From a virus: a stretch of 29,189 nucleotides of DNA. Under the pieces are notes generated by a model. The model was not told the origin of the DNA and made no database searches. It was given only the letters and a program-made list of their open reading frames with translations. The DNA lies in the IMG/VR virus record IMGVR_UViG_3300026136_000346, positions 1 to 29,189 of that record. One strand, 5' to 3'. Position numbers and translations under genes: made by a program. This document shows positions 241 to 19,418 of this stretch, piece by piece (positions within the stretch are counted from its first letter, which is position 1; every line of letters begins with the position of its first letter).

Positions 241-675
241 ATGTCACGCGCACTATCAGATATAAATCCATCGCCAGATAAAGTTGCGATGAAAGGTTTA
301 TATAGGGATTTCCCTATGTTTTTTAAAACTGTGCATCCGACTAAAAAAGATATAGCTGCTGTTAAGGATTTAGATGCTGTAAAACACTCAGTAAAGAATT
401 TAATATTAACAAATTTTAATGAGCGGCCATTTCATCCTGAGATTGGTTCAAATGTAACAGCTTTGTTATTTGAACCAGCAGATAATTTTACATCAATGGC
501 GATTAAAGAAGAAATATTATATGTTTTAAAAAAGTTTGAACCAAGAACGAATGGTCATACCGTTGAAATAATTGATAATTCAGATAGAAATGCGTATGAA
601 ATTACAATTGGGTTTAATGTTATATTTTCTCCAAAGCGAGAAGAAATTAGTTTTTACTTACAACGATTACGATAA
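241..675 (+). CDS. 25: Baseplate wedge subunit gp25
   Basis: This 144-residue protein belongs to the gp25/GPW family (T4 gp25 is 132 residues). The family joins the inner baseplate wedge, next to gp6 and gp53, and contacts the sheath-initiation region. The supporting signature is ERPFHPEIGSN at residues 61-71, followed a few residues later by LLFEP. After it comes the amphipathic helix and beta segment (EEILYVLKKFEPR, then VEIIDN and EITIGFNVIF) usual for the family. The ATG at 241 lies 6 nt after an exact late promoter octamer. The next in-frame ATG is codon 17 (289); starting there would remove a non-conserved extension, so the start is probable rather than certain. No Shine-Dalgarno is visible. 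The stop overlaps the gp6 start (TAATG), suggesting translational coupling. Confidence 0.93.
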   Translation: MSRALSDINPSPDKVAMKGLYRDFPMFFKTVHPTKKDIAAVKDLDAVKHSVKNLILTNFNERPFHPEIGSNVTALLFEPADNFTSMAIKEEILYVLKKFEPRTNGHTVEIIDNSDRNAYEITIGFNVIFSPKREEISFYLQRLR

Positions 676-2531
676 TGAAGCAACTTAATGTCACAGAACT
701 CGACTTTGATGCAATCAAAGAAAACCTCAAAGATTATTTTAAAAACGTAGATAACGGAGAATATTCTGATTGGGATTTTGAAGGATCGGGTCTTAGTCAT
801 CTACTCGACGTTTTAGCATATAATACACATTATAATGCAGTTGTTGCCCATAATGCAATGAACGAATCTTTCCTCGATTCGGCTCAAATTCGATCAAATG
901 TAGTATCTCGGGCTAAGCTTCTTGGATATACACCAAAAAGCCAAACAGCGCCGATGGCAAAAATTTCATTAACATTCCCATCGGCTGTTAATCGAAATCT
1001 TTCAACATATACACTTACTAAAGGACAATCGCTTACATCTGCAATTGATGGAGTAACATATACTTTTATTACTCGAGATGATTATACTGCTGTTCTTGAT
1101 GAAGAAAATAGGCAATATGTATTCGATGATGTAGTCATATATCAAGGTCGCATGAAAGAAAGTTCATATGTCGTCGAAACAGGAAATATTGATCAAAAAT
1201 ATATTATCGAAGACAATACAGTTGATTTAGATCATTTACTTGTTGATGTATATGATAATCAATACTCAACAGCATTTGAATCTTATGCTCGATTTAAAAG
1301 TTTAGCTGGTGTTGGTCCATCGACCGCAGCATATTTTATTAATGAGAATTACAATGGTAATTATGAAATTAAGTTTGGTGATAATATCTTTGGTAAAAAA
1401 CCATCTTCTTTAAATATTATTAAAATCCGGTATTTAAGTACAAAAGGACCTAATGCTAACGGTGCTAATGTGTTTGAATGGGCAAGTCCGGGTTCTGTTA
1501 GTCCTACAATTGTTACTCTTTCATCTGCTACGAATGGTAGTATTAAAGAAGACGTTGAGACAATTCGTCATAATGCACCACTTTCTTTTACATCACAGAA
1601 TAGAGCCGTTACATCAACTGATTATAAAGTTCTTATTCAACAGATTTTAAATAATATCGAAACAGTTTCTGTATGGGGAGGTGAAGATAATAATCCTCCT
1701 CAATATGGAAAAGTATATGCTTCGATTAAACCATTTGATTCAGAAAAGCTTACAGAGTTGGATAAAGATTTTCTCTTAAGAGAGTTGGTTGAAAAAAGAG
1801 TAATTGGAATCGAGCCAGTTTTGATTGATCCAGAATATACATATTTGTATTTTGATATCATGTTTAAATATGATTCGAATAGAACATCATTTTCTCCTGG
1901 TCAATTATCAACAAAGGTTGAAGAAATGCTCGAGGAATTTAATGTTACAAATCTACAAAAATTTGATGGTGTATTTCGTTATTCAAAACTTTTATCACAC
2001 CTTGATAACTTAGATGTTTCAATCGTAAATTCCTTTGCTCGAGTATACTTATATAAACGAGTTACATTTGAATATGGAAAACTTTTATCAACTCCGGTAG
2101 ATTTTCAGTTAGAAATCTATGGAGAAATTGATCAAAAAGAACCAATGATGGCATCAGATAGTTGGGTGCACAATAATATTATTTATAGATTAGAAGATGA
2201 GCCAATTACCGGTTCAGTCGAAGAAAGAAATGTATATGCATATCATATCGGTGCAAATGGTAATAAGAAAAAGTTATCTAAAAGTGTAGGTACACTTAAT
2301 ATGAAGACCGGATTAGTTTCTATTAATCCTCTTCCAATTAGTAAAACAGAAACTATAAATATATACGTCACTCCAGCATCAAACGACGTAGTATCGAAAA
2401 GAAACAAACTAATTAGTATTGATATTGGAAGAACAAACATTACTCCAGAAGTTGATACAATTGTTGTATCTGGATCATCTGGAGTTGATGAATATACACC
2501 ATTCTTAAGACACCGTCCAGATAATACATAA
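675..2531 (+). CDS. 6: Baseplate wedge subunit gp6
   Basis: This 618-residue protein corresponds to T4 gp6 (660 residues), the wedge protein whose dimers form the continuous inner ring of the baseplate and whose core resembles the baseplate J family. Recognisable parts are the N-terminal LDFDAIKENLKDYFKN, then GSGLSHLLDVLAYNTHYNA and NESFLDSAQIRSNVVSRAK near residues 35-80, the usual opening of gp6-like proteins. Later segments such as ITVTSSDYK-like AVTSTDYKVLIQQ, and SVWGGEDNNPPQYGKVYASIKP at about residues 332-353, are also family-typical. The ATG shares its A with the gp25 stop codon. No Shine-Dalgarno precedes it, so expression probably relies on coupling and on the late transcript begun before gp25. 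The final 30 or so residues, ending in HRPDNT, look linker-like. Confidence 0.93.
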   Translation: MKQLNVTELDFDAIKENLKDYFKNVDNGEYSDWDFEGSGLSHLLDVLAYNTHYNAVVAHNAMNESFLDSAQIRSNVVSRAKLLGYTPKSQTAPMAKISLTFPSAVNRNLSTYTLTKGQSLTSAIDGVTYTFITRDDYTAVLDEENRQYVFDDVVIYQGRMKESSYVVETGNIDQKYIIEDNTVDLDHLLVDVYDNQYSTAFESYARFKSLAGVGPSTAAYFINENYNGNYEIKFGDNIFGKKPSSLNIIKIRYLSTKGPNANGANVFEWASPGSVSPTIVTLSSATNGSIKEDVETIRHNAPLSFTSQNRAVTSTDYKVLIQQILNNIETVSVWGGEDNNPPQYGKVYASIKPFDSEKLTELDKDFLLRELVEKRVIGIEPVLIDPEYTYLYFDIMFKYDSNRTSFSPGQLSTKVEEMLEEFNVTNLQKFDGVFRYSKLLSHLDNLDVSIVNSFARVYLYKRVTFEYGKLLSTPVDFQLEIYGEIDQKEPMMASDSWVHNNIIYRLEDEPITGSVEERNVYAYHIGANGNKKKLSKSVGTLNMKTGLVSINPLPISKTETINIYVTPASNDVVSKRNKLISIDIGRTNITPEVDTIVVSGSSGVDEYTPFLRHRPDNT

Positions 2532-2533
2532 AC

Positions 2534-5500
2534 ATGTCTCATATTTCTATAGCTTCGGCCGCTCCTCAAGGAACTGTTCCTCATAACGTAGAATCACTTC
2601 GCGTTGAAGAACTTATCCCTGAGCAACTTAGACAAAGTTCAGAAAAATTTATAGATCTAATTAAGAAGTATTATGATCATCTTAATTCTGAAGGTCTTCC
2701 TACATATGAAATAAATCGTATTATCGATGAACATGATATCGATAAAGTTTCTGAGAAATATTTAGATGGAATTCAGGCAGAAATTGCAAAGAATGTACCA
2801 GATTCTCGAGTAATGGATCGAGTTTCTTTGTATAAGAAAATTATTAAGTATTATACAGTAAAAGGTTCACAAGAAAGTATTACAACATTCTTTCGACTTT
2901 TCTTTGATGAGATTATTGAGGTATCATATCCGAAAGAAAAGCTTTTTAAACTTTCTGATGGTAATTGGGATCGAAACGATAATAAGTATATCAATACTAT
3001 TAATGCATCGTTGTTATATGGTAATAAAAATATTACCTTTAATTATAATAAGTTTGAATTAAAGAATGATGATGATGTTGTATTAGGAACAGGAAAAATT
3101 ATTAAAGGTGAAAGAGTTTCATTATATGATGAAGCTCCTAAAATCCAATCTCTTGTTTTTGATATTAACTCTACAAAGAACGTTAATTCTATTATTGGAT
3201 CGTGGGATTCATTAGCATTAGAAGAAAAGTGGAGAGGGTATTTTAATAATGGTGCAACGTTCAATCAATATGACGATGTTGTTGTATTAGATGGAAAAAA
3301 GTCATATGTCGATTTCGGAGATATTGGAGATCATGCTGTTGATCTTAATACAGATGAACATTCTTTTATAATTCGAGCTCGGCCTAAAAAGAATAAAGAA
3401 AATACTCAAATACAACCTCTTTTCTCTTTAGCTAAAGATTATTCACAGGTTGGATCTCACGAGCTATTCTTTGATAAAACAACTAGAAAGGTTGGAAGAT
3501 CCTTTATCGACAATAAAGATCCAAATATTATTTTAGATACTGATAATACATCTTTAATATTTTCTAATTTTATTGATAGCACATCTCTAAATGGAGAGTC
3601 ATCTGATTATTATAATAGATTTTTTGCAGATTACCCTTCTTTTATTAATGGGAAATGGGTGCAAACAACAAGCCTTTTTAATAATGCGCCGGTATACGAA
3701 TTTAATACAGATCCAGATTTAACATTATATGTAGAAACCGATGGTTCGAAATATAGATGGACATTACAGTCACGTGGTGCTAATTTATATTTTACTGATT
3801 GGGTTGATTTAGCAGATATACCAAATCCATACGATTTGAATTTAAAATGGAATTCTGGATATAAACCAGGAACACACGAATTTAAAGTGTTACCAACATG
3901 TGATGCTCTAAAGAAAAACGAATCCTTTATATTTGAACTACATAATCGTGGTTATCTTTCGATATATCATAATGATATTATAAAGCAAGAGATTACATTT
4001 GCAAATTCTGATATAAAAGATATTTTAGATTATGCAATAGAAGGTGATTATCTTTTGATTTTAGATAAAGAACTTAATGATAATACTCGAGTTATTGCTT
4101 ATAAACGAGATTCATTCAATGATTATGTATATGAGAAAACACTTAACCTAAATGGTCACTTTTCTCATATTAAATTAGTTAAGTCTCAAATTGTTGTTGG
4201 TACTGGTATTAGTGGCCATCAAGATCTTCGAGTATATGATAATTGGGAAGAAGATAATTATACAACGTTAAAAACCGATGATTTTAGATCTGTTACTCCA
4301 GATTTAGAATATAACGATCTTAATATTTCCTCTTCACCTATTGGAAATATTATTTCTAATATTAATGAAGAATATAATTGGGATGGAAACGGATTAGCGT
4401 ATGCTGAAGATGAAGGAGATTACAAACGCACTAAAGATTTTACAGTAAAAAAGAGATTTACTATTGCGTTACGTTTTAAAGTATCGGGAGTCGTTGACAA
4501 TCGGGATCTTACACTCTTTAAACTTGGTTCTTTATCAGTTATTACAAATAAAGATGGAAATATTGCTATATCTGATGGTACTACGGATACGAATAATATT
4601 CCAAGATATACAGATGGTGATGATCAAATCTTACAAACACTCAAACACAGTGGTTGGAATACTCTCGTTGTTGATTTTGAATTAGGAGAATTTGACGAAA
4701 TATCAAATCCTACCTATGATGTATGGATAAATTCTAATATTTCTATTAATGGATTTAGAAGAACAATTTATAATTTAGCTCTTGACTATGGCGGTAATTG
4801 GATAAGTGCAAACTTTAATGCAACGAGTACTATTGAAGTTGGTTCTAATAATGTAGAGGTATCGTATTTCGCTATCTATGATGGTAAACTTACTGAATTA
4901 GAACATAGACATATCGATACGTATTTAGCATCAAGCATTGATGTAGCTCATGATTTAGGTAGATTTGAAGTAAATGAATCGGGTAATGTTATTATAAAAG
5001 CTTCTGATTACGGATTATATATTTGGGAAAAAATAAATGATGAATGGCATTCTTACTTTAATACGATTGAAGATATTACTGATAATGATTCATCTCAAAT
5101 TTATAAGAATTCGAATCTAACATATTCGTATAAGTTTTTTGGTGATGCTTTATTACTTGTAAATGGTGGATATAATAATAAAATTATTCTAAGTGAAGTT
5201 ATTTGGGATTATGATGAAGATGCCGATGGTGTTAATCCAGCAAATGCACTAGATATAATTAGACATACTGGCTATTATAAACAATTCGAACCGCTAACAT
5301 ATTTCTCGGATCAAAATCGCGAATATGAGTTATACTATATCGAAAGCGAATATCTTTCTACTCGTAATTCATGGAAAGTAAAAAGAAAATTTAAACCTTC
5401 TACAGTATTTGTACAGCCTAATACTGAAATTGATGGTGGAAATACGGTAGAAGCTAAATTTAAAATAGGTCTTCAATATGGATTAGATATCGCGATTGAC

Positions 5501-8500
5501 AATAGCAATGAATATTTTGCTATATCATACGAGCCATCTTTTTATAGCGATAATGTCGATACAATCGATGGCTCGTTATATAGAACAAGCGGTAAAGGTT
5601 TACGCTATGACATTTATAGAAAAGTTAGTGATAATACTATCGTTCCCAGGCAAATAGAAGAACCGATTGCCGGATGGCCAAAGATTGATAGCTTCGTATA
5701 TAATAATTATTCGTTAAAATATAGAACAGATAGGTATCCAACATATAATGCGATATTATCATATCCGTATCTTATTCATAGTACTAATACAAATGATTCA
5801 TACGCTGAACATTCGCTTTTAAAATATGGTTATAGTACTGATAATTCTTTATATGAATTATTAGATGATGAGGTAATTACTGGCGATTTTGTTGTATCTA
5901 CACCGGCTACAAATGAAATATATTTAGATAATAGCGAAATACTTCCGTATGAATATTCAATTGTTATTATTAGAGGTAGAGCAAATAGATATAATGGATA
6001 CGTTGATATATCAGTAAACGGTACAGACTTTGAAAGAATCTTTAGTGGTAATACATCGAAAACATTATTAATTTCTCCCGAAGCAAATTTTGTTCTTGGT
6101 AGAAATAAAAGAGGATATTTCAATGGAGATATAAGCCATGCTCAATATTATAATGATGCAATATCAGATTCTACTAAAGACGAAATTGTAGAGTATCTAA
6201 ATAAAAATGTTTTAGACTTTTATGCTCTTGAATTCGATGAAATTTCTGGCACATCGATTGGTGCTACAAAAATGGTATCGGATCCTCTTGAAAAAGATGA
6301 TGTATTTACCTTTAACAATTTAGATGGTCATATATTTAATTCTTTTTGGGTTTTTGATCAACCAAATTTAAATGATAATCCATATCCACGGATTCGTATA
6401 ACTGCTAATTATAATAATGCAATTTCTGCAGCGCAAGATATTCATTGGGGGGATGGAAATTCTGATCTTCTTCTTGATGAGGCTGCGGTTCAACATTTAT
6501 ACACTTCTGATTTTGTAGGAAAATACTTAGATCGAAAAGGTCAAGCTTCGTCTGTCAATCGTATTCAAGATAGTATGTTTTGGCAAGAGTTCTCGTATAA
6601 TATTCGTTCGTCTTTAAAGATCGACGAATGGGAACAGCAGTTTGTAAATCTAGTTCACCCTGCAGGTTTAAGATTTTTTGCTACTGTTCTTCTTCTTGTA
6701 ATAAGAGACAATCATTGGTTTGGACCAAAATACGTTACCTTCGATCCAAGCTCAAGAGAAAACATTAATCTTATTAAAGTTGAAGATAAATTTTTATCAC
6801 CGTTTAGAACTACACAGCCAATAGAAGATCTTCGGTGGCTTGAATCATTGACTGCACCTACTGAAGGTGGGGGTTATCATATGCCTATTTTCCAACCAGG
6901 TTGGTTACAAGGAGATATTCGAGTAAGACAATTTATTTTCGAGGCAGCACAATGGACAAAACTTGCTCGCTTCGTACCTGGAAATGAAGCAACTGCTAAA
7001 TATACATATGAGTATATTGAAGGTGATCCGGTTTTTGATAAAGAAATTCGTATTATTGGATATAGCGGAGAAGAATTAAAGGTAGGTGATCAAGTCTATC
7101 AAGATGTTGAAAATATAACATACGAAGGTGTTATAACTAAAATTATACCAGACGGTGACGAGTTTACCGGTATTTTAAGATTAACTAATACTGCTATAGG
7201 AATTGACAATGTTCCAGAAAGTCAGCGAGAGTATTCTTTGCCTGGACCGCACATTTCATCGTTAGATGATAAAACATATTTTGAAGAAGGCGACGGAAGC
7301 GGTGATGCAACCGGTAATTATATTACACTTAATCTTTTCGATGAGACATATGTTCATGGATTGATTGTACAAGGCGGTATCAATCCAGATACCTCTTTTG
7401 ATGTTACTACTAATGAACAGCTACTTTCAGATGATGAGTTTACTCAATTTGGATTTGCAGAAAAGATAAGCGGTAATGATATTGCACAGGCAGTTGCAGT
7501 AAGAGGTATATTAAAATCAACTGGAAAAAAGGGAATAGCAATATACGAATTTACCACGAGTTGGAATCAGATTAGCGACGTTATTCTTGTCGATCCAGAT
7601 AATGATGGTTCAAAAAGATTTGGTGATGAGTTAAAATATTCTGGAGATGGAGTTGCTATTGATAATTATAATCATAATGATCTTGAAGGGGTAATTCAAG
7701 TATATGACTCTACTTTAGGTACCCGCCACGGAAGTGATATTATTGTACCAACAGAAAGTGAATATGGTTATACCTTTGATTTCGAAAAAAATGGTAATGA
7801 TTACAATGTAATTGTTGCAAATACTGCTCCAACTAATTCTGAATATACTAGTATTGTTAGCTCATACAAATATGACAGCTCTGGTGTAGTGCAGCATTTT
7901 TCGAAATACGCTGATGATCTAGTAAGCACTCGTAATGATGCTTTTGGTAAAGCTGTTGCAATAAGTGGAGATCGAATTGCAATTAGTAGTCCAAATTATG
8001 AAATTAATAAAGGTAAAATACAAGTGTTTGATTTGTATAAACACACAGAAAATATTACTGTTAATCCAGAATATGAAGATCGATATCATACCTCAGTTTG
8101 GGGGATCACCGAAGACGCACTATATAGACATTCATTATCTAAACTCGATTCATCCCAGGGTTGGTCATGTTCTTCCGCTGCTAAAGACGAAATTGATAAT
8201 CTAGATTATAATACATATGTTGAACTTGATTTAGGAGAAGAAAAATCGGTTGCTGGAATTATAACTCAAGGACGCAATTCAGAAGAGTATAAACAATGGG
8301 TAACTGACTATAAAATAGAAGTTTCTATAGATGGTAATACTTGGAATTATCTACAAAACCCAAATTTTTATGGCACAAGTTCAGATAGGTGGATTGGAAA
8401 TAATGAATCTAACTATTTAACTAGTGCAACTAATACATTTGAAGATTATGTAACAGCTAGATATATTCGAATATATCCAACTGGTTATCAAAGTCATCCG

Positions 8501-10366
8501 ACTATGAGAGTAGGAGCAATTGTTGGAAGTGGTGAAAGTAAATGGGTACAAGTAGGTAAAGATATTGTTGGTGATTATAATAATCATCTAGGTGAAAAGA
8601 TTGTACTTGATAAAAACGTAATAGTAACATCTTCTAATAGAAAAACTACAGATGGCTTAACAACGATTGATACAAAGGTATATGAGTATAATGATAATAG
8701 TGGATGGATTCAAAAAGGTCAAACACTTTCTGAACATATTATTGAATATACCTTTCCTTCTGATAAGTATAATCTATCATATAAAAATGATTATACATTC
8801 GGAGACGGTTATTTAGGAATCGGTGGTTTAATTTCGAGAGATAGTTTATTATCTGATAATGTGCCTCAATATTTTAGTTCAATTTATTCATTTGATCGCA
8901 ATGAAAATGAATGGATAAAGATTGGTCAATTTAATGGTGAAAACATTACCGCAACTTTAACACATTCATCTATTGGCGCAGTAACTGGTGATTTCTTTAC
9001 TGGTAATTCGCTAAATAGTCCAAGTGAAGATGGATATATTGCTTATCATACTGCTACAGAGCAAAGTGAAAATGCCTTAGGAGTTACAGGATATATCGAC
9101 AAATTAAATATTCAATATACAACTGATAATGAAAATTGGATCGATATATCAAGCGATTCACCGCCAGAATTTGAAACTGGATTAACTGACTATAGCGGGA
9201 AATCTAAAATAGAATTTGATAGTCCGGTTATTGCTACAGGTATAAGAGTTATTCCATTAGAATCTCCGGTTTTTCTTCGATTCGGAATTGCAACAGAGTC
9301 AACTATAGGTGGATTTGTAGATGGTGATATCTATACTCTTAATAGTCCTTCGACTGTTGCAGCAATTAATATAGCACCTCTTAAAACCAAAACAGAAATA
9401 ATTGATGTCGGTGAAGGAGAGCAAGAGGCTGCATACGCCCAACAAGATCGATCGACAATTGACATTAATTCTGAGCTCTTTATGAGAGCAGTATTAATGT
9501 CGTTTAAGTACGTTATTCCTTCATTCCAGCCACATACACAATTTACAAAATCAGATTATCAACAGAATCTTAAGTTTAAAGATATTGGAGAAATTAGCTG
9601 CTTCTTTAATATAACAATTGATGATGCGATTGCTGATGAATTTGTATTTACTAATATATCGGCTATTGCAGAAAAACGTAATCCTCTTACTACTGAGAGT
9701 GGAAACTTCATATATCTTGAAAGTGATTCTTCACCATTCAATAGAGAACTTCTTATTGATGATATTGAAGATTGGTGGAATAATCCTGAAAATTCGAATG
9801 ATATTTCTGAACCAGTTCAATTTAATATTACATCCTCAACTGGTCCTTCGGTAAATCAAGGAGATATGGTATATCAAGATATTACTACAACAATGTTGCG
9901 TAAATATGATAGTATTGATGAAGTTAATATTATTGAAACCGGAGATGGCGATATTAATGGTACTTGGATAAAGACTACAGACGTAAATGGTAAAGCCGCA
10001 TTTGAAAAGGGAACTGATGGAACTATCGAATGGGACGGTACTAAATGGGAAATTGTTTATGATGGAAATACATATTATGAATCTACAGAAGATACTGATT
10101 ACCCATGGGAAGTAGTATTATGGACAATTACATCACACGGTACAGATGCTCCTGACTTCTCGGTTAATATTACTATTGGAGGCCTCATTACTGAAACACT
10201 TGATGATGGTGATACTATAATGGTTGGTTGGAAAAATGCTATAAATACATCTGGTACCGACTTTGAATTGCCTTCAATGCCAGAAGTCGATCTTCTCTTT
10301 AGAGATGGAACAATTTATACTGATTATAGCCCACAAACTACATTACAGATTACTGTTAGCACGTAA
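2534..10366 (+). CDS. Giant gp7-like baseplate wedge protein with adhesin modules
   Basis: The gene encodes 2610 residues; T4 gp7 has 1032. It follows gp6 by two bases, the gp7 position. A wedge-like N terminus (residues 24-54, LRVEELIPEQLRQSS then FIDLIKKYYDHLNSEG) and a core near 1260-1400 (SVNRIQDSMFWQEFSYNIRS, FVNLVHPAGLRFF) resemble large wedge-region proteins of marine T4-like phages. Around these lie binding modules: LamG/ConA-like folds near 233-330, 616-800 and 1103-1231; an ING-W module near 365-435 and again near 2466-2531; propeller-like repeats near 490-576, 1633-1830 (FGKAVAISGDRIAISSPN) and 2000-2140; a full discoidin (F5/8 C)-like domain near 1850-2000 (VELDLGEEKSVAGI, ARYIRIYPTGYQSHP); and discoidin-like fragments near 1573-1620 and 2145-2252. 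The frame is open throughout. Inferred role: a wedge arm that also binds host glycans. The gp7 label is positional; the domain calls are by eye. Confidence 0.7.
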   Translation: MSHISIASAAPQGTVPHNVESLRVEELIPEQLRQSSEKFIDLIKKYYDHLNSEGLPTYEINRIIDEHDIDKVSEKYLDGIQAEIAKNVPDSRVMDRVSLYKKIIKYYTVKGSQESITTFFRLFFDEIIEVSYPKEKLFKLSDGNWDRNDNKYINTINASLLYGNKNITFNYNKFELKNDDDVVLGTGKIIKGERVSLYDEAPKIQSLVFDINSTKNVNSIIGSWDSLALEEKWRGYFNNGATFNQYDDVVVLDGKKSYVDFGDIGDHAVDLNTDEHSFIIRARPKKNKENTQIQPLFSLAKDYSQVGSHELFFDKTTRKVGRSFIDNKDPNIILDTDNTSLIFSNFIDSTSLNGESSDYYNRFFADYPSFINGKWVQTTSLFNNAPVYEFNTDPDLTLYVETDGSKYRWTLQSRGANLYFTDWVDLADIPNPYDLNLKWNSGYKPGTHEFKVLPTCDALKKNESFIFELHNRGYLSIYHNDIIKQEITFANSDIKDILDYAIEGDYLLILDKELNDNTRVIAYKRDSFNDYVYEKTLNLNGHFSHIKLVKSQIVVGTGISGHQDLRVYDNWEEDNYTTLKTDDFRSVTPDLEYNDLNISSSPIGNIISNINEEYNWDGNGLAYAEDEGDYKRTKDFTVKKRFTIALRFKVSGVVDNRDLTLFKLGSLSVITNKDGNIAISDGTTDTNNIPRYTDGDDQILQTLKHSGWNTLVVDFELGEFDEISNPTYDVWINSNISINGFRRTIYNLALDYGGNWISANFNATSTIEVGSNNVEVSYFAIYDGKLTELEHRHIDTYLASSIDVAHDLGRFEVNESGNVIIKASDYGLYIWEKINDEWHSYFNTIEDITDNDSSQIYKNSNLTYSYKFFGDALLLVNGGYNNKIILSEVIWDYDEDADGVNPANALDIIRHTGYYKQFEPLTYFSDQNREYELYYIESEYLSTRNSWKVKRKFKPSTVFVQPNTEIDGGNTVEAKFKIGLQYGLDIAIDNSNEYFAISYEPSFYSDNVDTIDGSLYRTSGKGLRYDIYRKVSDNTIVPRQIEEPIAGWPKIDSFVYNNYSLKYRTDRYPTYNAILSYPYLIHSTNTNDSYAEHSLLKYGYSTDNSLYELLDDEVITGDFVVSTPATNEIYLDNSEILPYEYSIVIIRGRANRYNGYVDISVNGTDFERIFSGNTSKTLLISPEANFVLGRNKRGYFNGDISHAQYYNDAISDSTKDEIVEYLNKNVLDFYALEFDEISGTSIGATKMVSDPLEKDDVFTFNNLDGHIFNSFWVFDQPNLNDNPYPRIRITANYNNAISAAQDIHWGDGNSDLLLDEAAVQHLYTSDFVGKYLDRKGQASSVNRIQDSMFWQEFSYNIRSSLKIDEWEQQFVNLVHPAGLRFFATVLLLVIRDNHWFGPKYVTFDPSSRENINLIKVEDKFLSPFRTTQPIEDLRWLESLTAPTEGGGYHMPIFQPGWLQGDIRVRQFIFEAAQWTKLARFVPGNEATAKYTYEYIEGDPVFDKEIRIIGYSGEELKVGDQVYQDVENITYEGVITKIIPDGDEFTGILRLTNTAIGIDNVPESQREYSLPGPHISSLDDKTYFEEGDGSGDATGNYITLNLFDETYVHGLIVQGGINPDTSFDVTTNEQLLSDDEFTQFGFAEKISGNDIAQAVAVRGILKSTGKKGIAIYEFTTSWNQISDVILVDPDNDGSKRFGDELKYSGDGVAIDNYNHNDLEGVIQVYDSTLGTRHGSDIIVPTESEYGYTFDFEKNGNDYNVIVANTAPTNSEYTSIVSSYKYDSSGVVQHFSKYADDLVSTRNDAFGKAVAISGDRIAISSPNYEINKGKIQVFDLYKHTENITVNPEYEDRYHTSVWGITEDALYRHSLSKLDSSQGWSCSSAAKDEIDNLDYNTYVELDLGEEKSVAGIITQGRNSEEYKQWVTDYKIEVSIDGNTWNYLQNPNFYGTSSDRWIGNNESNYLTSATNTFEDYVTARYIRIYPTGYQSHPTMRVGAIVGSGESKWVQVGKDIVGDYNNHLGEKIVLDKNVIVTSSNRKTTDGLTTIDTKVYEYNDNSGWIQKGQTLSEHIIEYTFPSDKYNLSYKNDYTFGDGYLGIGGLISRDSLLSDNVPQYFSSIYSFDRNENEWIKIGQFNGENITATLTHSSIGAVTGDFFTGNSLNSPSEDGYIAYHTATEQSENALGVTGYIDKLNIQYTTDNENWIDISSDSPPEFETGLTDYSGKSKIEFDSPVIATGIRVIPLESPVFLRFGIATESTIGGFVDGDIYTLNSPSTVAAINIAPLKTKTEIIDVGEGEQEAAYAQQDRSTIDINSELFMRAVLMSFKYVIPSFQPHTQFTKSDYQQNLKFKDIGEISCFFNITIDDAIADEFVFTNISAIAEKRNPLTTESGNFIYLESDSSPFNRELLIDDIEDWWNNPENSNDISEPVQFNITSSTGPSVNQGDMVYQDITTTMLRKYDSIDEVNIIETGDGDINGTWIKTTDVNGKAAFEKGTDGTIEWDGTKWEIVYDGNTYYESTEDTDYPWEVVLWTITSHGTDAPDFSVNITIGGLITETLDDGDTIMVGWKNAINTSGTDFELPSMPEVDLLFRDGTIYTDYSPQTTLQITVST
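8088..8530 (+). other. Discoidin (F5/8 type C)-like domain in the gp7-like protein
   Basis: Residues about 1852-2000 of the gp7-like protein. The order of motifs is typical of the fold: a Trp/Ser-rich opening (GWSCSSAAKDE), a hydrophobic edge strand (YVELDLGEEKSVAGIITQGR), the QWVTDYKIEVSIDGNTWNY strand pair, and the closing ARYIRIYPTGYQSHPTMRVG. This family usually binds sugars or lipids on cell surfaces. A related copy lies in the next gene at about 15975-16378. Confidence 0.75.
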
Positions 10367-13300: not shown

Positions 13301-16300
13301 TCAAAAGACCGGTAATCAAACACTTGATGGTACTCTTAATTTTAATAAGACTAATCAAGGTTTAGTTTGGGGAATGAATTCAGACGGAGCTTCTATTCGA
13401 TTCCACAATACTGGCGATGGTGATACTAATTCGAGATTAGAGTTTAACACCCGCGATAATTACAGCGAAGAATTCTTATTTAGTCATACTGCGTGGCGTG
13501 GTATTGATGTGCCTTCAGAACATATTGAATGGCTTCGTATTGGTCATAATAAACTATTACATATGGGCCATAAGGTTTGGCACGAGGGTAATGATGGCGC
13601 TAATTCTGGTCTTGACGCTGATACACTAGATGGTAAGCATGCGTCTAATTTTGCTACATCTAATCATAATCATGATGATATATACGTTAAAAAGGGTGTA
13701 ACGATTACTCCATCAGATCTTTCGGTCGGTGGACCAATTTGGGATACAAATAGTAATCTTACAGTAAATGGTTCTTTAACAGTTGGTGATAATGCTGGTG
13801 AAGGAATTACAACTCGTAAAATTGTTGGTGTTGGTGATTCTTTGATGCTTCATGGTGGTTCACAAACCAATGCAGCAAAGATTGAATTATATAGTGATAA
13901 TAATAGCAACTTAGCTAAACATATTCGTTTACGTGGTCTTACAACCCAAATATATTCTCAATCAAATCTTGCTCTTGACATAAAGTCTGATGGCCAAATT
14001 GTTGCCCCTCAACAAACAAAGGCTCGTATCAATATTGATAAAGCTCTTACAACGAAAGAATGGGTTCTTTCTGAAATCGCAAAGGTATATCCAGATGATA
14101 ATTATGTATTAAGAGATGATCCAGAATTTGTATCTGGTGTTATCATTAACGGATCACTTGATAACGCAGACTATACGAGATATACCGGAGGGCAAGTGCC
14201 CGGTGGTTTCGGCACATTTAAGAATGATGGCGTTAACTTATTACTTAAAGGAAATGCAAATGGTGTAAGTGGTGTTTATTTTGAATCTGAAAAAGATGGT
14301 ACACGAATTAATTCTGGATCTGATTTCGGATTTATCCAATATCACGCCCATGGTATTGGTAATTCAACCGGCGAACAATCTGATCTTGTTATTGGTGTAA
14401 CAAATGACGGACCCGGAGGTGTTGAAGATAAAATCATATTTGATGTTCCAAATAAAAATAATCTAAAGGTTATTATTCAGAATAACACTTCTACTGAATA
14501 TAAGGTTTGGCACGAAGGTAATGATGGTACCGGTTCTGGTCTTGATGCTGATACAGTAGATGGTATACACGCTGCTAGTTTCTTTAATAAGTCATCTACT
14601 TCTCAACAAAATATTAAAGGCGATACTCGATTTGATCAAGGGAAACGAATTTCATTTGGTCATACAAATCAAATAGATAGTAATGATGGAGGAATTTCGG
14701 CTGGTAGACACGGAAGCGGATTAAACATTGTTGGTGTTCAAACAAAGACTGGCGAAGGTCGAGTTATTAGAACTTGGGGCGAGTTGATTACTCATGGTAG
14801 TCATAAATATTGGCATTCTGGTAATGATGGTAAAAATTCTGGTCTTGATGCTGGATATTTAGGTGGACAAAAATACGATAATTATTTGCTTAAAACCGAT
14901 AAAGCCGCTGATTCAAGTAAGCTTGGAGGAACTGCTGCATCTAATTATGTTACTAAATCTAATGCACATTTTATTACAACTGATAATACTGCTCCAGTTA
15001 TTATTAGTCGATTCGGCCATACTAGAGAAAGTGTAAAGATTGGTCTTACTGATCAAGCGTGTACATTTAATTACACAAATGATGAAAATTGGAATTCATA
15101 TGTATTTGAATTTAATAACACTGATACTGAACGTGAAGGCGGTGCTAGAGCAAATACCGGAAAAGTTTGGTTTAGATCTAGGAAAGATTATATAGATAGT
15201 TCCGATAAGTCAAAGGGTGTTGGTCCACATACTATTGAGGGTTATATTCGGGACTCTCGTTCTGGAACAACTAGAGATTATAAGATATGGCACTCTGGTA
15301 ATGATGGTAGCGGTTCTGGTCTTGATGCTGATACACTCGATGGTGTACATGCAGCATCCTTTGCTAAAATTAATACTAGGATACCAGTAAGTACACCAAC
15401 TTCTGATAACCATGCCGCAACAAAGAAATATGTTGATGATAAAGTATTTGACGATGCCAAAACTCTTGACGGTATTGATAGTAGAGGTTTTTATAATAAT
15501 ACATCTCAAGAAATTCCTAGCGGATCTAGTAGTAGCCTTCCAGTGGGATGGTACACAATTGCATATAATAATGGAGATAGAGCAATTGCACGATTTGGTG
15601 TTAGAGATGCAGCAGGGGGTAGACATCAGTCGATTATTTTTACTGCTTCTCATACGTTTGGTATGAATGCTTCGAATAATATTACAATTACGCATAATTC
15701 ACATTATGCAAACCAACCTATTAAAGGTATTCGAATTAAAGAAGGTAATACATATGATGGAGCAGCATTACAAATTTACATTGCTAATCCAAGTAATATT
15801 GTAAAAGCATATATATTAGGAGATAATTTCCAATCAAACGGTTGGGTAAAAGCCGAAAAATGGGTTCCAGATAATACAAATCCAGGTATACCTTCCGAAA
15901 GAAGAGATCCATCAATAAATAATAGAACCCAAACTAGTTACTATAGTTCTGGTGGTACAACTCTTAATAATGCACGATGGGGCGACAGGTTTGGATGGGC
16001 GCCAAGCACTACATCGAATCTTATACCGGCTGGCGTAACGCTTGTTCCGCACCCGAGCCAAGGTTACGATTACACACAATTAGATCTCGGAGCAGTAAAG
16101 ACTGTGACCGGTGTTGACACACGAGGTAGGTATGATATTGATCATTGGGTAACAAAGTATCAGGTAGCATACTCTTCAAATGGATCTAGTTGGACCTTTG
16201 CTCAACAATTTGGCAAAACCGACTATGTGTTTACTGGAAATAGTAATAGAAATTCATCGGTGGCAAGAACTTTTTCACAGCCGGTGCAAGCTCGATATAT

Positions 16301-17714
16301 TCGTATATATCCAACTGCCGGTAATTTTTATGGTTGGCCAGTGCTTCGATTTGCAGCGAAGATTGATGTTTGGCCAGAATTAACAAATATAGCAGCAGAT
16401 CTTGATTTATCTAATTCTAATGGTGGTATTATTACTACTGATGAAATTTATGCGGGTGGTACAATAGATCAATATAAAGTTTGGCATGAAGGTAATACCA
16501 AAGATGCTATTGTAACAGATAAAATTAAGAATGGTGCGGTTACAACTGCAAAACTATCGACTGGAGCCCCTACTTGGAATACTGCATCTGATCTTTTTGT
16601 TGAAGGTGCTTTACGATTAGGTGATACTAGTGGTCAGGGTTCAGTAATACCATATACATCAATAAGTGCAGAACGCGATGCTCATAAGACAGATACACTA
16701 AAATTATTTAGTGATGAAAATATAGTATTTTCTACAATTAACGAGTATAATCGTCCTAGAATGATTATCAGTAGGTACGGTAATATCAGATTATCAGCAC
16801 GAGATAATACCGGTGAAGGACATTCTAAATTACATATCGAAGATAAAGCAGTTCCATTATCATTTAAAGAAACTGATGAAACTGGTGCTGGTTCATTGTG
16901 GAGAATGCCACTTGATGGTAAAGAATTAAGATTTGATGCATCACAAGATGGAACGACTTTTACCGGATATAAGGATATTTTAAGATTAGGCGCTGATGGT
17001 AAAATTGTTGCTCCTAACTTACTTAAAGAAAATATTACCAGTGCAAAATCTCTTGTTACAAAGGAATACGTTGATAATAATCCCGAGGTAGCTGCCCTCG
17101 GTCTGTCGCTTGCATCGATGGCTTACTCCATGAGTCGTGTTTCACCCAGTGGCTCATACACAGCTGTAGAAAGATATAGTTACCCGAATGTTACTTACAC
17201 CTCGGCGATGGGGGCAAGATATGGAAGCACCAGCGCAGGAAGTTGGAGATGGACTCGCGGAGCGATCGCGAGTGACGGATATCTTTTTACTGGTAGTTCT
17301 AACAAATTATATCATATTAATTCGAATAAGGAATGGTTTGCGAGAGCGGCCAATTTACATCCCACGTTAGATCTAAAAATTAAAGTAAACTTTCAATTTA
17401 TTAGCAATACTGATGATCAGGCAGATCATATACTTTGGTATAGGCTAAAAACAACTAATAATCCCTTGGATTCTAATCCAGGTACTGGCGCTTTAGTCAC
17501 TGTAGAAGAAAGACGTAATGCGGCTGGAGATAGCGGGAGTCAGTATGCGCCGCATACTTGGGGCGTATATCGAACAGTAACAAATAGAGAAATTATTGTA
17601 CCAGCTGGACAAACAATATTCTTTAAATTTTTTGGAAGAATTAATTACGGTAGTGGTCAAAACGAAGGTATAGGTATTAGAGGATTTAATATACATTCTC
17701 CTACTTGGGGTTAA
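10386..17714 (+). CDS. Large modular tail fibre protein
   Basis: A 2442-residue fibre, probably a trimeric host-binding appendage. The N terminus (MSTKISGLTERL, then NGEEFFPIIDSTNSQYHTYK) resembles particle-anchoring ends of phage fibres; no in-frame ATG follows nearby, so this start is well supported. The shaft holds an AVTxDKLA/ETAKIK tandem repeat (residues 240-283), seven WHxGN motifs, six of them in the longer WHxGNDG-SGLDAD form typical of T4-type fibres, TKxYVD motifs, and four GPxW units that each open a new module. A compact domain near 1717-1820 (SLPVGWYTIAYNNGDRAIAR) is a type I associate with many marine phage fibres. A discoidin-like domain fills about 1864-2000. The end, about 2231-2442, looks like a receptor-binding tip; I see no S74-type chaperone. 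The tip and the front of the discoidin domain are GC-rich against AT-rich surroundings. The gene sits between the gp7-like gene and gp8. Confidence 0.88.
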   Translation: MSTKISGLTERLQTNINGEEFFPIIDSTNSQYHTYKIKLDTLFQSGQGYEKVTNLELTSDNNTEFVLTYTKEDNTTDVLTIPKYFIEDNDVAFSHIDPAGYITSTQKISNNNSDDKLATAKSVDQHIDHRLYGTGLYDDEIKAYFGDSSTPRSETHVLADFRLNTEVASDFAALKDGVSTRHDTLKKIEVEIDALNASNATKIGIDQVNTSHFKINSSNLSTRLNIKDLGITTNLLNHQAVTRDKLANNAVETAKIKTGAVTADKLATNAVETAKIKNDAVTPAKISSGGPSWDNTTVSIPGALSVTANVTTSGRFRSHATDFHLYNTGRSKGNVHDGRALVHGFSDELVINYGGDYTGGVTIRGIVTVPDLSVQKIKSNGDNTVVTKAYVDDADIRIRPLDSSRVSDDCILLRHMSDNSVGTAEILDDSITSAKIENIGPQWDSNGSVTIQNDLDANGLNFEIGNSASTSNNPTIVKLISSKSTSGFAAIKRNSGNSGTLIFDNKGSGTHEFQINGSKKFEVQSGRSTVHGGFTVTGGGTTTIAGSNFSNPAFLVGSDSTGIAIDNNEIYQKGHHMHIGVTAESQNIYFRSSLGGLLTIHGNGGNVWMRNGITSDSGIFRQNHDNQRTHILGGTTANKGANVILYGINNTNHPGYAYYDADKHIFRSNNHARTLLTIDSVANNVTLNYEGTSAKHLVTKGYVDANTFPKITQIDDITNRLNSGFYQTKQADTGNGWPESTGTWYHMLSNTHSNTSNYNALQFAADYYKQKVFFRSTNNNGKQAWSELWHTNNMGSESGLDADTVDGKHAADFATATHNHDSRYLRTGAAGTATKLITFTGGLVSTNVGTTPDKIGNIAIHRKNYNIDKLESFILSKTDGQFSGSRPAGTHNGFGVISLRTHSGNYFTQLGLDTNQNNLWIRSANNSTSFNSWNKIWHDGNDGSGSGLDADKLAGVASSSYATKTYSDGRYIQKTGNQTLDGTLNFNKTNQGLVWGMNSDGASIRFHNTGDGDTNSRLEFNTRDNYSEEFLFSHTAWRGIDVPSEHIEWLRIGHNKLLHMGHKVWHEGNDGANSGLDADTLDGKHASNFATSNHNHDDIYVKKGVTITPSDLSVGGPIWDTNSNLTVNGSLTVGDNAGEGITTRKIVGVGDSLMLHGGSQTNAAKIELYSDNNSNLAKHIRLRGLTTQIYSQSNLALDIKSDGQIVAPQQTKARINIDKALTTKEWVLSEIAKVYPDDNYVLRDDPEFVSGVIINGSLDNADYTRYTGGQVPGGFGTFKNDGVNLLLKGNANGVSGVYFESEKDGTRINSGSDFGFIQYHAHGIGNSTGEQSDLVIGVTNDGPGGVEDKIIFDVPNKNNLKVIIQNNTSTEYKVWHEGNDGTGSGLDADTVDGIHAASFFNKSSTSQQNIKGDTRFDQGKRISFGHTNQIDSNDGGISAGRHGSGLNIVGVQTKTGEGRVIRTWGELITHGSHKYWHSGNDGKNSGLDAGYLGGQKYDNYLLKTDKAADSSKLGGTAASNYVTKSNAHFITTDNTAPVIISRFGHTRESVKIGLTDQACTFNYTNDENWNSYVFEFNNTDTEREGGARANTGKVWFRSRKDYIDSSDKSKGVGPHTIEGYIRDSRSGTTRDYKIWHSGNDGSGSGLDADTLDGVHAASFAKINTRIPVSTPTSDNHAATKKYVDDKVFDDAKTLDGIDSRGFYNNTSQEIPSGSSSSLPVGWYTIAYNNGDRAIARFGVRDAAGGRHQSIIFTASHTFGMNASNNITITHNSHYANQPIKGIRIKEGNTYDGAALQIYIANPSNIVKAYILGDNFQSNGWVKAEKWVPDNTNPGIPSERRDPSINNRTQTSYYSSGGTTLNNARWGDRFGWAPSTTSNLIPAGVTLVPHPSQGYDYTQLDLGAVKTVTGVDTRGRYDIDHWVTKYQVAYSSNGSSWTFAQQFGKTDYVFTGNSNRNSSVARTFSQPVQARYIRIYPTAGNFYGWPVLRFAAKIDVWPELTNIAADLDLSNSNGGIITTDEIYAGGTIDQYKVWHEGNTKDAIVTDKIKNGAVTTAKLSTGAPTWNTASDLFVEGALRLGDTSGQGSVIPYTSISAERDAHKTDTLKLFSDENIVFSTINEYNRPRMIISRYGNIRLSARDNTGEGHSKLHIEDKAVPLSFKETDETGAGSLWRMPLDGKELRFDASQDGTTFTGYKDILRLGADGKIVAPNLLKENITSAKSLVTKEYVDNNPEVAALGLSLASMAYSMSRVSPSGSYTAVERYSYPNVTYTSAMGARYGSTSAGSWRWTRGAIASDGYLFTGSSNKLYHINSNKEWFARAANLHPTLDLKIKVNFQFISNTDDQADHILWYRLKTTNNPLDSNPGTGALVTVEERRNAAGDSGSQYAPHTWGVYRTVTNREIIVPAGQTIFFKFFGRINYGSGQNEGIGIRGFNIHSPTWG
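11115..11234 (+). repeat. Two tandem 60-bp repeats in the fibre shaft
   Basis: Two adjacent 60-bp units (11115-11174 and 11175-11234) encode DKLANNAVETAKIKTGAVTA and DKLATNAVETAKIKNDAVTP. They are close in DNA as well as protein, including a shared GTTGAAACAGCAAAGATTAA run, so the duplication looks recent. The 20-residue period is typical of repetitive fibre shafts. Confidence 0.85.
14382..14471 (+). repeat. 90-bp block nearly identical to 28681-28770
   Basis: I aligned these bases by eye to 28681-28770 and find one mismatch in 90 (an A/C change in the GAAGAT-AATC context). The block encodes DLVIGVTNDGPGGVEDK and IIFDVPNKNNLKV in the first fibre. Conservation includes synonymous positions, so a recent duplication or gene conversion is likelier than protein-level selection. 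Confidence 0.92.
14715..14780 (+). repeat. 66-bp block identical to 29011-29076
   Basis: All 66 bases match 29011-29076 by eye. The block encodes SGLNIVGVQTKTGEG and RVIRTWG. It lies about 240 bp after the 90-bp block, at nearly the same offset as in the downstream fibre, with a diverged stretch between them. Confidence 0.92.
15975..16378 (+). other. Discoidin (F5/8 type C)-like domain in the first tail fibre
   Basis: Residues about 1864-1998 of the fibre. Key segments are YTQLDLGAVKTVTGVDTRGR, HWVTKYQVAYSSNGSSWTF and ARYIRIYPTAGNFYGWPVLR. The pattern matches the domain at 8088-8530, and the DNA under the closing strand is almost the same (27 of 29 bases). The first 120 bases or so (15961-16080) are about 52% G+C by my count, well above neighbouring DNA. 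Confidence 0.75.
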
Positions 17715-17849: not shown

Positions 17850-19418
17850 ATGGCAGCAATTATTACAAGTGATTTTAGAAAGAATTCTCGACAAATATTC
17901 ATCAATGATATTAAGACATCTACCGTTGATGATTATTTTATTGGACTAGGTAAGACAGACAGTTGGCCAGATTCGGCAGACGCTGAAGGTAATGCGATAA
18001 CAGAATATAATAGAAATTTCTCTGCGCCATTACCAACTGATACGATTCAGAATAAAGAAGATGTTCTGAAGAATCTTATGGTTTTAGTAAAAACAAAAGC
18101 CGCAGAAGTTTTTACTGTTGTTCCTCGAAATAATTGGGCATATAATAGAGTTTATAAGATATACGATCCAACCGATCCAAGATGTTTTGATTACGAAACA
18201 ATTGATGGTGTAGCGCACTATCCGTGTTATGTTACATCGAATGATAGAATTTATATTTGCTTATCTAACGTGGATGGAGATGGCGAAGTAGTAGAATCAA
18301 CTACTCCAATTCCTTCAGGCGCTGGATCAACCCATGAAACATATCATAGTCCAAGAGCATTAAGTGATGGATATGTTTGGGCATATGTTACTTTGCTCGA
18401 TGATGATTCTAAATTTTATACTGACCAATTTGTTAATTACACATATCCAAGCTCTAGTGATTATACAAATATTGTAAATGCTACTGGAGGATTAGTATAT
18501 GGATTTAAGATTATTAATGGCGGAGGTCCTACTATTAGTACAACATCACTAACTGAACTTAAATTAATTGGTACTGGATATAGCAATGGTGAATTAACAC
18601 CAGTATCAGACGTAATTATAACAGATACGAGTGGATCCACTACAGATTTTAATGTAATATTTGGTGCAAATGGAATTGAAAAAATTGAATATAAAGATCC
18701 ACCTCAAACTGGAGATCCATTTTCTTGGAAAACTGGATTCGAATCAGCATCAATTGTTGCTAAAGTAAATGGAGAGGTTAATACCGATATTCAAATTGTT
18801 CCATATGTTTTACCGTATAACGGTTTAGGAAGAAATCCCGATAGCGACCTTCCTTCATACTATGCTGGAATTGCTGTTGATTTTATTGGAGAAGTCGATG
18901 GTGAAGCACCAGTTGGATATAATGTTGATGTTAGACAAATTAGTTTAATTAAAAATCCCACTCGAAACCCAGACGTTGATATTACTACTGATAATGATTC
19001 TGATGCTGATCAGGGCTTTTATACACATGACGAAGCATATGATGCATTAAAATATATTTCATTATCTGCTGGAACATTAACGAGAGATTATATAGGTAGA
19101 GATTTTATTATTGAACAACAAAGTACTGGAGCGAAAGCTTGGTTAGATTATGCAGACAACGTAAACGAAAAATTGTATTATCACCAAAATAGTTCAAATC
19201 TTGTTAACTTTAAACGATTTGAAGCTAATAGTATTACTGATGATATTATCGTTAAAAGTATTACTGGATATGATGACGGTGAAAGATATCAATGCATTCA
19301 AGTTGATAATCCAGAATATTTACCTGAAACGGGTGAAGTGATTTTCTATGAGAATAGAAAGCCTATAAATAGAAATTATAATCAAACAGATGAAGTAAAA
19401 CTTGTTATTCAATTCTAA
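17850..19418 (+). CDS. 8: Baseplate wedge subunit gp8
   Basis: This 522-residue protein is a long form of T4 gp8 (334 residues), a wedge subunit that binds gp7 and gp10 in the outer baseplate arm. The N-terminal AAIITSDFRKNSRQIFINDI aligns with the RAIVTSKF start of T4 gp8. VVPRNNWAYNRVY near residue 90 matches the VIPRRDW segment, and SDGYVWAYVTLL matches GDGYVWEYLFEI. RQISLIKNP and the closing GEVIFYENRKPINRN, then QTDEVKLVIQF, match RQISIITNP and the T4 C terminus. The extra length is mainly a central stretch (about residues 205-350) with Gly-rich GTGYSNGEL-type motifs, plus an insertion before the C-terminal strand. The start is supported by the N-terminal match. The stop overlaps the next ATG (TAATG). 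Confidence 0.93.
   Translation: MAAIITSDFRKNSRQIFINDIKTSTVDDYFIGLGKTDSWPDSADAEGNAITEYNRNFSAPLPTDTIQNKEDVLKNLMVLVKTKAAEVFTVVPRNNWAYNRVYKIYDPTDPRCFDYETIDGVAHYPCYVTSNDRIYICLSNVDGDGEVVESTTPIPSGAGSTHETYHSPRALSDGYVWAYVTLLDDDSKFYTDQFVNYTYPSSSDYTNIVNATGGLVYGFKIINGGGPTISTTSLTELKLIGTGYSNGELTPVSDVIITDTSGSTTDFNVIFGANGIEKIEYKDPPQTGDPFSWKTGFESASIVAKVNGEVNTDIQIVPYVLPYNGLGRNPDSDLPSYYAGIAVDFIGEVDGEAPVGYNVDVRQISLIKNPTRNPDVDITTDNDSDADQGFYTHDEAYDALKYISLSAGTLTRDYIGRDFIIEQQSTGAKAWLDYADNVNEKLYYHQNSSNLVNFKRFEANSITDDIIVKSITGYDDGERYQCIQVDNPEYLPETGEVIFYENRKPINRNYNQTDEVKLVIQF
19364..19371 (+). promoter_or_regulatory. Possible late promoter octamer inside the end of gp8
   Basis: Exact TATAAATA inside gp8, 46 nt before the next start at 19418. 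It encodes part of the conserved KPINRNYN stretch, so coding constraint may explain it, and it lacks the 5-6 nt spacing to an ATG seen elsewhere. It could add late transcription of the DUF4815-type gene, but a chance match is equally likely. Confidence 0.3.

Follow-up and report, generated by a model that had tools for sequence, protein, structure and literature searches.

The window, by which we mean the whole stretch of DNA that was analysed, is a 29,189-base virus record that encodes, in this order, gp25, gp6, a 2610-aa ORF, a 2442-aa fibre-like ORF, gp8, a DUF4815/VrlC-like ORF and another fibre-like ORF. A nucleotide search of the window against phage records gave no match; the named phages closest to it in gp6 are Methylophilales phage Melnitz and the Pelagibacter phages HTVC008M and Mosig (34–37% identity). 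The 2610-aa ORF starts directly 3' of gp6, and a single fibre-like ORF lies between it and gp8. In the T4 baseplate, gp7 belongs to the wedge heterotrimer, (gp6)2-gp7. The features of the locus are listed below, with residue numbers, unless ascribed to T4, referring to the 2610-aa protein.

241..675, plus strand: gp25 homologue (wedge / sheath initiator); Pfam GPW_gp25 2.8e-11, phrog_261 4.8e-41
675..2531, plus strand: gp6 homologue (wedge); Pfam Gp6-like_1st 3.8e-17, phrog_219 3.7e-152
2534..10366, plus strand: gp7 homologue of 2610 aa with inserted modules; ATG at 2534 to stop at 10366, two anchors
2534..2992, plus strand: anchor 1 (residues 1–153), the gp7 helical wedge core, equivalent to T4 gp7 647–759; hhalign, PDB profile, PF23786
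2993..6517, plus strand: site A insertion (residues 154–1328), where T4 has domain V (766–861) and L051 has nothing; comparison of gp7-slot proteins
3146..3568, plus strand: candidate LamG-like segment 1 (residues 205–345); conserved among relatives, no credible PDB match
3647..3769, plus strand: ING-W segment (residues 372–412), the place of a nested 430–750 aa insert in relatives; alignment of relatives
3893..5725, plus strand: predicted beta-propeller (residues 454–1064) with another domain between blades; AF2 model pLDDT 47, VIA-align Z 17.4
4301..4948, plus strand: candidate LamG-like segment 2 (residues 590–805), within the propeller; alignment, no credible database match
5786..6238, plus strand: weak LamG-like segment 3 (residues 1085–1235); Laminin_G_3 E 0.0073, below cut-off
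6518..6721, plus strand: anchor 2 (residues 1329–1396, VHPAG), equivalent to T4 gp7 862–898; HMM order and specificity, PDB profile
6722..7210, plus strand: conserved segment following anchor 2 (residues 1397–1559); retained in relatives
7211..9304, plus strand: site B insertion (residues 1560–2257), ~700 aa in the tail; missing from the L030 and L040 groups
7931..8029, plus strand: FG-GAP_2 repeat (residues 1800–1832); Pfam 1.8e-5, 25.2 bits against a cut-off of 23
8135..8530, plus strand: F5/8 type C (discoidin, CBM32-like) domain (residues 1868–1999); Pfam 2.6e-27, PDB matches, fold comparison
9305..10363, plus strand: C-terminal segment (residues 2258–2610); retained in relatives
16068..16364, plus strand: second F5/8C domain, in the adjoining fibre-like ORF (10386–17714); Pfam 1.9e-21, 41% identity to the gp7 copy
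17850..19418, plus strand: gp8 homologue; Pfam Phage-Gp8 2.2e-12, hhalign 98.1% to T4 gp8

Anchor HMMs were built from residues 14–170 (anchor 1) and 1329–1396 (anchor 2), with Straboviridae sequences left out of the building. Among the 4,239 six-frame ORFs of the compared loci, both HMMs matched gp7-slot ORFs only, T4 gp7 included, and the two segments occur in T4 gp7 in the same order as in the window protein. T4 gp7 was also the top match of each profile among 177,635 PDB sequences, with E=3.6e-5 for anchor 1 and E=0.23 for anchor 2, which had just two matches, both gp7; as the latter E value is weak by itself, the argument is carried by order and specificity. The VHPAG segment of anchor 2 corresponds to the T4 VHPVG segment, downstream of the helical core, and Pfam domain V of T4 gp7 (766–861) falls exactly between the anchor equivalents. 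In addition, the window protein scores 31.3 bits against a gathering cut-off of 27 for PF23786 Baseplate_wedge (Pfam, E 1.8e-7), and compact same-slot proteins match Straboviridae gp7 over T4 residues 641–838 (hhalign, 97.1% probability, E 7.7e-11). The Pfam search did not find Gp7_5th and Gp7_6th, which are present in T4 gp7, in the window protein; we do not take these domains as defining gp7 outside Straboviridae, because compact relatives are also without the inter-anchor domain. From these sequence comparisons, in which the matches of the two wedge segments lie well outside what chance would give, we conclude that the 2610-aa ORF is a true T4 gp7 homologue and the gp7 wedge protein of this phage. 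The sequence-only reading had put the gene in the gp7 slot, with wedge-like segments at the N terminus and near residues 1260–1400, and its position directly after gp6 and the two anchors (residues 1–153 and 1329–1396), both homologous to T4 gp7, bear this out.

With 2610 aa, the protein is 2.53 times as long as T4 gp7 (1032 aa), which agrees with the earlier estimate of about 2.5. As T4 gp7 is itself expanded from a core of ~390 aa, this ratio understates the expansion; the inter-anchor distance is ~1,176 aa in the window, compared to 102 in T4 and none in L051. T4 gp7 (PDB 5hx2, 5iv5, 5iv7) resembles the window protein in its slot (25-6-7-8) and in having both core anchors in identical order. 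However, the extra mass of T4 gp7 is in front (~640 aa N-terminal to anchor 1), where the window protein has no extension, and T4 has the 96-aa domain V alone between the anchors, whereas the window protein has modules there and in the tail. The compact gp7s (PF23786 Baseplate_wedge: L051, Ochrobactrum phage OC, C48C1, SRB7757) have the core in common with the window, contiguous in L051, but their inter-anchor inserts are absent or short and their total length is 316–631 aa. Overall, the reading of the 2610-aa ORF as an expanded modular gp7 is well supported.

The inserted modules are of kinds usual in glycan or cell-surface binding. The F5/8C domain scored 95.9 bits against a Pfam cut-off of 28.2, and its matches among PDB sequences are neuropilin, lactadherin and others. 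Its predicted fold is closest to galactose-binding CBM32s (the nearest is the NanJ CBM32, with Z 9.5 and rmsd 2.9 over 108 aa, from a low-confidence model), with modules of sialidase, fucosidase and galactose oxidase among the neighbours; judged by its sequence, we consider a discoidin/CBM32 domain in the window gp7 to be certain. AF2 confidence was poor (pLDDT 47.2 for site A, or 47 when rounded, and 37.5 for site B), and just the propeller and the discoidin domain were read from these models, each via fold comparison; Foldseek global TM-scores were ~0.1 and were left out as evidence of global fold. In the low-confidence model, residues 454–1064 aligned to propellers with Z 17.4 and rmsd 3.3 over 254 aa (VIA-align), and the top fold rows were nearly all WD40-type, which supports a predicted WD40-type propeller interrupted by another domain. 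Homology of this site-A propeller to the FG-GAP module was considered and is unsupported (hhalign 0.1%).

Of the modules named in the sequence-only reading, both the discoidin-like one, a lectin-type fold (CBM32/discoidin), and the propeller-like one were recovered, the propeller from a low-confidence model; the lectin-type folds thus number one or more. Its LamG/ConA-like modules fared less evenly: residues 1085–1235 have a sub-threshold match (Laminin_G_3, 16.9 bits against a cut-off of 27.6) that is seen in 4/10 relatives, and residues ~205–345 and ~590–805 had no credible match in the databases searched. Profile searches of all three LamG-like segments against the PDB gave nothing credible, and Nup98 and similar matches were taken as chance. 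The ING-W string does occur, at residue 372, but our searches matched it to none of the described families. The term multi-lectin is therefore not supported, there being one clear (CBM32/discoidin) and one weak (LamG-type) domain of lectin type.

Across relatives, gp7 length ranges from 316 to 6,483 aa. In 37 gp7-slot proteins, the inter-anchor distance varies from none to 2,695 aa and the tail beyond anchor 2 from 12 to 2,983 aa. The anchors are separated by approximately zero residues in L051 and C48C1; 78–102 aa in OC, SRB7757 and five Straboviridae; 351–500 aa in Melnitz, Mosig and HTVC008M; 1,176 aa in the window; ~1,560 aa in S-PM2 and S-H9-1; and ~2,600–2,700 aa in S-H38 and Syn19. A third insertion place, inside anchor 1, holds 88–104 aa in pelagiphages, Melnitz, S-PM2 and S-H9-1 and ~600 aa in S-H38 and Syn19. 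L051, whose 391-aa gp7 lies between gp8 and a gp6 that is 45% identical to that of the window, is a natural empty site A, passing from ...YPKDYLFKTSDG to ...NRIQDGYVWQEYSY within ~20 residues. The L030 and L040 groups (gp6 identity ~70–75%) are without window residues ~1560–2257, and in L015 and L012 the flanks of the missing site B directly abut. These groups have an extra 430–750 aa at residue ~403, inside the ING-W segment, and this nested site-A insert is homologous to window site B (hhalign, 97.3%, E 2.2e-11); L049 and L016 each carry both site B and the nested block. Since modules are lost and moved between sites in relatives, with residues 154–1328 absent from L051 and 1560–2257 from the L030 and L040 groups, they are not constant structural parts. 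The post-gp6 "virion structural proteins" of cyanophages (S-PM2, S-H9-1, Syn19, S-H38) have the gp7 core with giant inserts at the window's sites, but differ in the added insert inside anchor 1, in bearing YHYH and LamG_3 domains, and in their length. As Syn19 gp7 reaches 6,483 aa, the arrangement is not special to the window phage; the expanded-gp7 pattern spans Kyanoviridae.

Two observations on the relatives are set apart here. The cyanophage gp7 homologues of L010, L009, L011 and L022 contain a YHYH domain (E 1e-26 to 1e-31), which may place a hydrolase within a wedge protein. The gp7 frame is broken at L016:3653-3655 and L015:6559-6561 and open in the close relative L049; the breaks are likely sequencing or assembly indels.

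We then compared rates of change in modules and core; amino acids change much faster in the modules. When the window is set against L001, gp25, gp6 and the anchors, taken together as the wedge core, differ by 9 nonsynonymous and 29 synonymous changes and site A by 79 and 51, a nonsynonymous excess in site A (Fisher, OR 8.6, p=8e-15) that peaks at residues 361–420, 721–780 and 1021–1080. Synonymous change in site A is also mildly raised (OR 1.8, p=0.011), so recombination probably contributes, and the Fisher p-values are optimistic, as sites are treated as independent while changes cluster. For three more divergent pairs, dN/dS in site A (0.19–0.32) exceeded that of every core segment of its pair (0.05–0.21). 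In the very close pair L016 and L049, the changes lie mainly in site B, where 56 are nonsynonymous and 15 are synonymous (dN/dS 1.1), and they form short loop-like patches that include the F5/8C domain. Frameshift artefacts were ruled out as the source of the L016/L049 differences, which are single and clustered substitutions with the frame intact. The fast change in inserts may reflect relaxed constraint or recombination.

For the published record we relied in part on Zaragoza-Solas et al. 2020 (PMC7029224) and Sullivan et al. 2010 (PMC3037559). T4 gp7 has been stated to be absent from pelagi- and cyanomyophages, where VrlC apparently substitutes for it, and YHYH and ConA domains were noted separately in unidentified structural proteins of the operon (PMC7029224). 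Among non-cyanophages, gp7, gp10 and gp12 are so divergent that they form up to nine clusters (PMC3037559). The presence of both anchors in the post-gp6 gene contradicts the published absence (PMC7029224), and in cyano- and pelagimyophages gp7 seems to have gone unrecognised (L010, L006, L007 and other Kyanoviridae post-gp6 genes). VrlC was tried as a gp7 substitute and rejected (hhalign 0.3% for gp7 homology, with 98.1% for the gp8 positive control); hhalign found no homology of VrlC to T4 gp7, gp8, gp9 or gp10. Kyanoviridae post-gp6 genes are annotated as hypothetical or structural protein, usually not as gp7, and that of C48C1 as "head closure". In Ochrobactrum phage OC, both the gp6-slot gene (L018:4091-5974) and the gene after it carry the note "T4-like gp7". 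Our literature search, which was thin on subscription journals, found no paper joining these observations into an expanded gp7.

We consider it probable, with some reserve, that the protein is a gp7 core with two long looped-out module arrays, which share host recognition with the fibres. The helical and VHPAG core segments would fold jointly into the inner wedge, arranged as (gp6)2-gp7, and from this core the inter-anchor and tail inserts would emerge at fixed points of the surface and extend as loops at the edge of the baseplate. The inserts are likely arrays of propeller and lectin-type domains, which related phages gain, lose, move and alter rapidly; these domains would face outward, presumably as six arrays per baseplate. 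They would touch host-surface glycans directly, giving reversible, multivalent and host-tuned adhesion, with recognition divided between wedge arrays and separate fibres. The proposal of the sequence-only reading that host recognition may be built into the baseplate is plausible in these terms. If the gp7 core of marine phages can carry swappable binding modules that amount to hundreds or thousands of residues, host recognition would not be confined to fibres. The finding also identifies as gp7 the large "virion structural proteins" that lack annotation in cyano- and pelagiphages.

At least two large fibre-like ORFs of the window phage could do the recognition instead, and by analogy with eCIS and T6SS the strongest rival to adhesion would be fibre docking, in which the inserts widen the wedge periphery to hold huge fibres and other baseplate proteins without host contact. 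eCIS offer the precedent of a gp7-like part that holds fibres: in AlgoCIS, AFP and PVC it contacts the tail fibres and is termed an evolutionary hotspot, as for Alg12 of AlgoCIS (PMC8894135), and TssG, the gp7 counterpart, grips TssK trimers via loops (PMC6300606). AlgoCIS, a contractile injection system rather than a phage, also resembles the window in having wedge proteins with added domains (Alg11 and Alg12), although the two carbohydrate-binding modules of Alg11 form a spike cage and, unlike those of the window, are not in the gp7-like part (PMC8894135). In the window, the 2442-aa fibre-like ORF adjoins gp7, and a fibre and its docking site could co-evolve, likewise yielding fast change. 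However, docking would be an unusual task for a discoidin/CBM32 domain, and the changes are grouped in short loop-like patches; we regard docking without host contact as unlikely.

The same propeller and CBM32 combination, as in sialidases and galactose oxidase, could make gp7 a glycan-degrading surface depolymerase. The CBM32 fold neighbours include sialidase, fucosidase and galactose oxidase modules, and YHYH, a predicted metal-dependent hydrolase that is often fused to tail or baseplate proteins (PMC7824862), occurs in cyanophage gp7s, but the Pfam search found neither a catalytic family nor YHYH in the window protein, leaving an enzyme improbable. We think it very improbable that the modules are weakly constrained decoration, piled up in permissive surface loops with little function. 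Compact gp7s without inserts and the fast change of inserts are what decoration would predict, but site A as a whole has dN/dS below 1 (0.19–0.39), most relatives keep a gp7 frame that is uninterrupted for thousands of bases, and the module types are selective.

Adhesion by wedge-borne arrays can also be put more generally. The F5/8C domain occurs both in gp7 and in the adjoining fibre-like ORF, and in L014 the 1482-aa gene after gp7 contains, at L014:11945-12502, an FG-GAP-like propeller stretch that is akin to site B of gp7. As gp7 and adjoining fibre genes have module types in common, an exchange of cassettes between the wedge gene and fibre genes is suggested, and would be a fair inference. 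More tentatively, it is possible that gp7 in Kyanoviridae and their kin is a general receptor-binding platform, with a ~390-aa core and fixed sites for lectin, propeller and enzyme-like cassettes exchanged with fibre genes, through which the wedge would detect glycans of the host and might link their binding to the trigger for contraction.

The fibre-like ORFs themselves (10386–17714 and 24796–29187) contain repeated strings of the WHEGNDGxxSGLDADxxDG kind, and the latter extends past the contig end. At 11103–11217, in the former, there is a 60-base tandem repeat (1.9 copies, 87% match).
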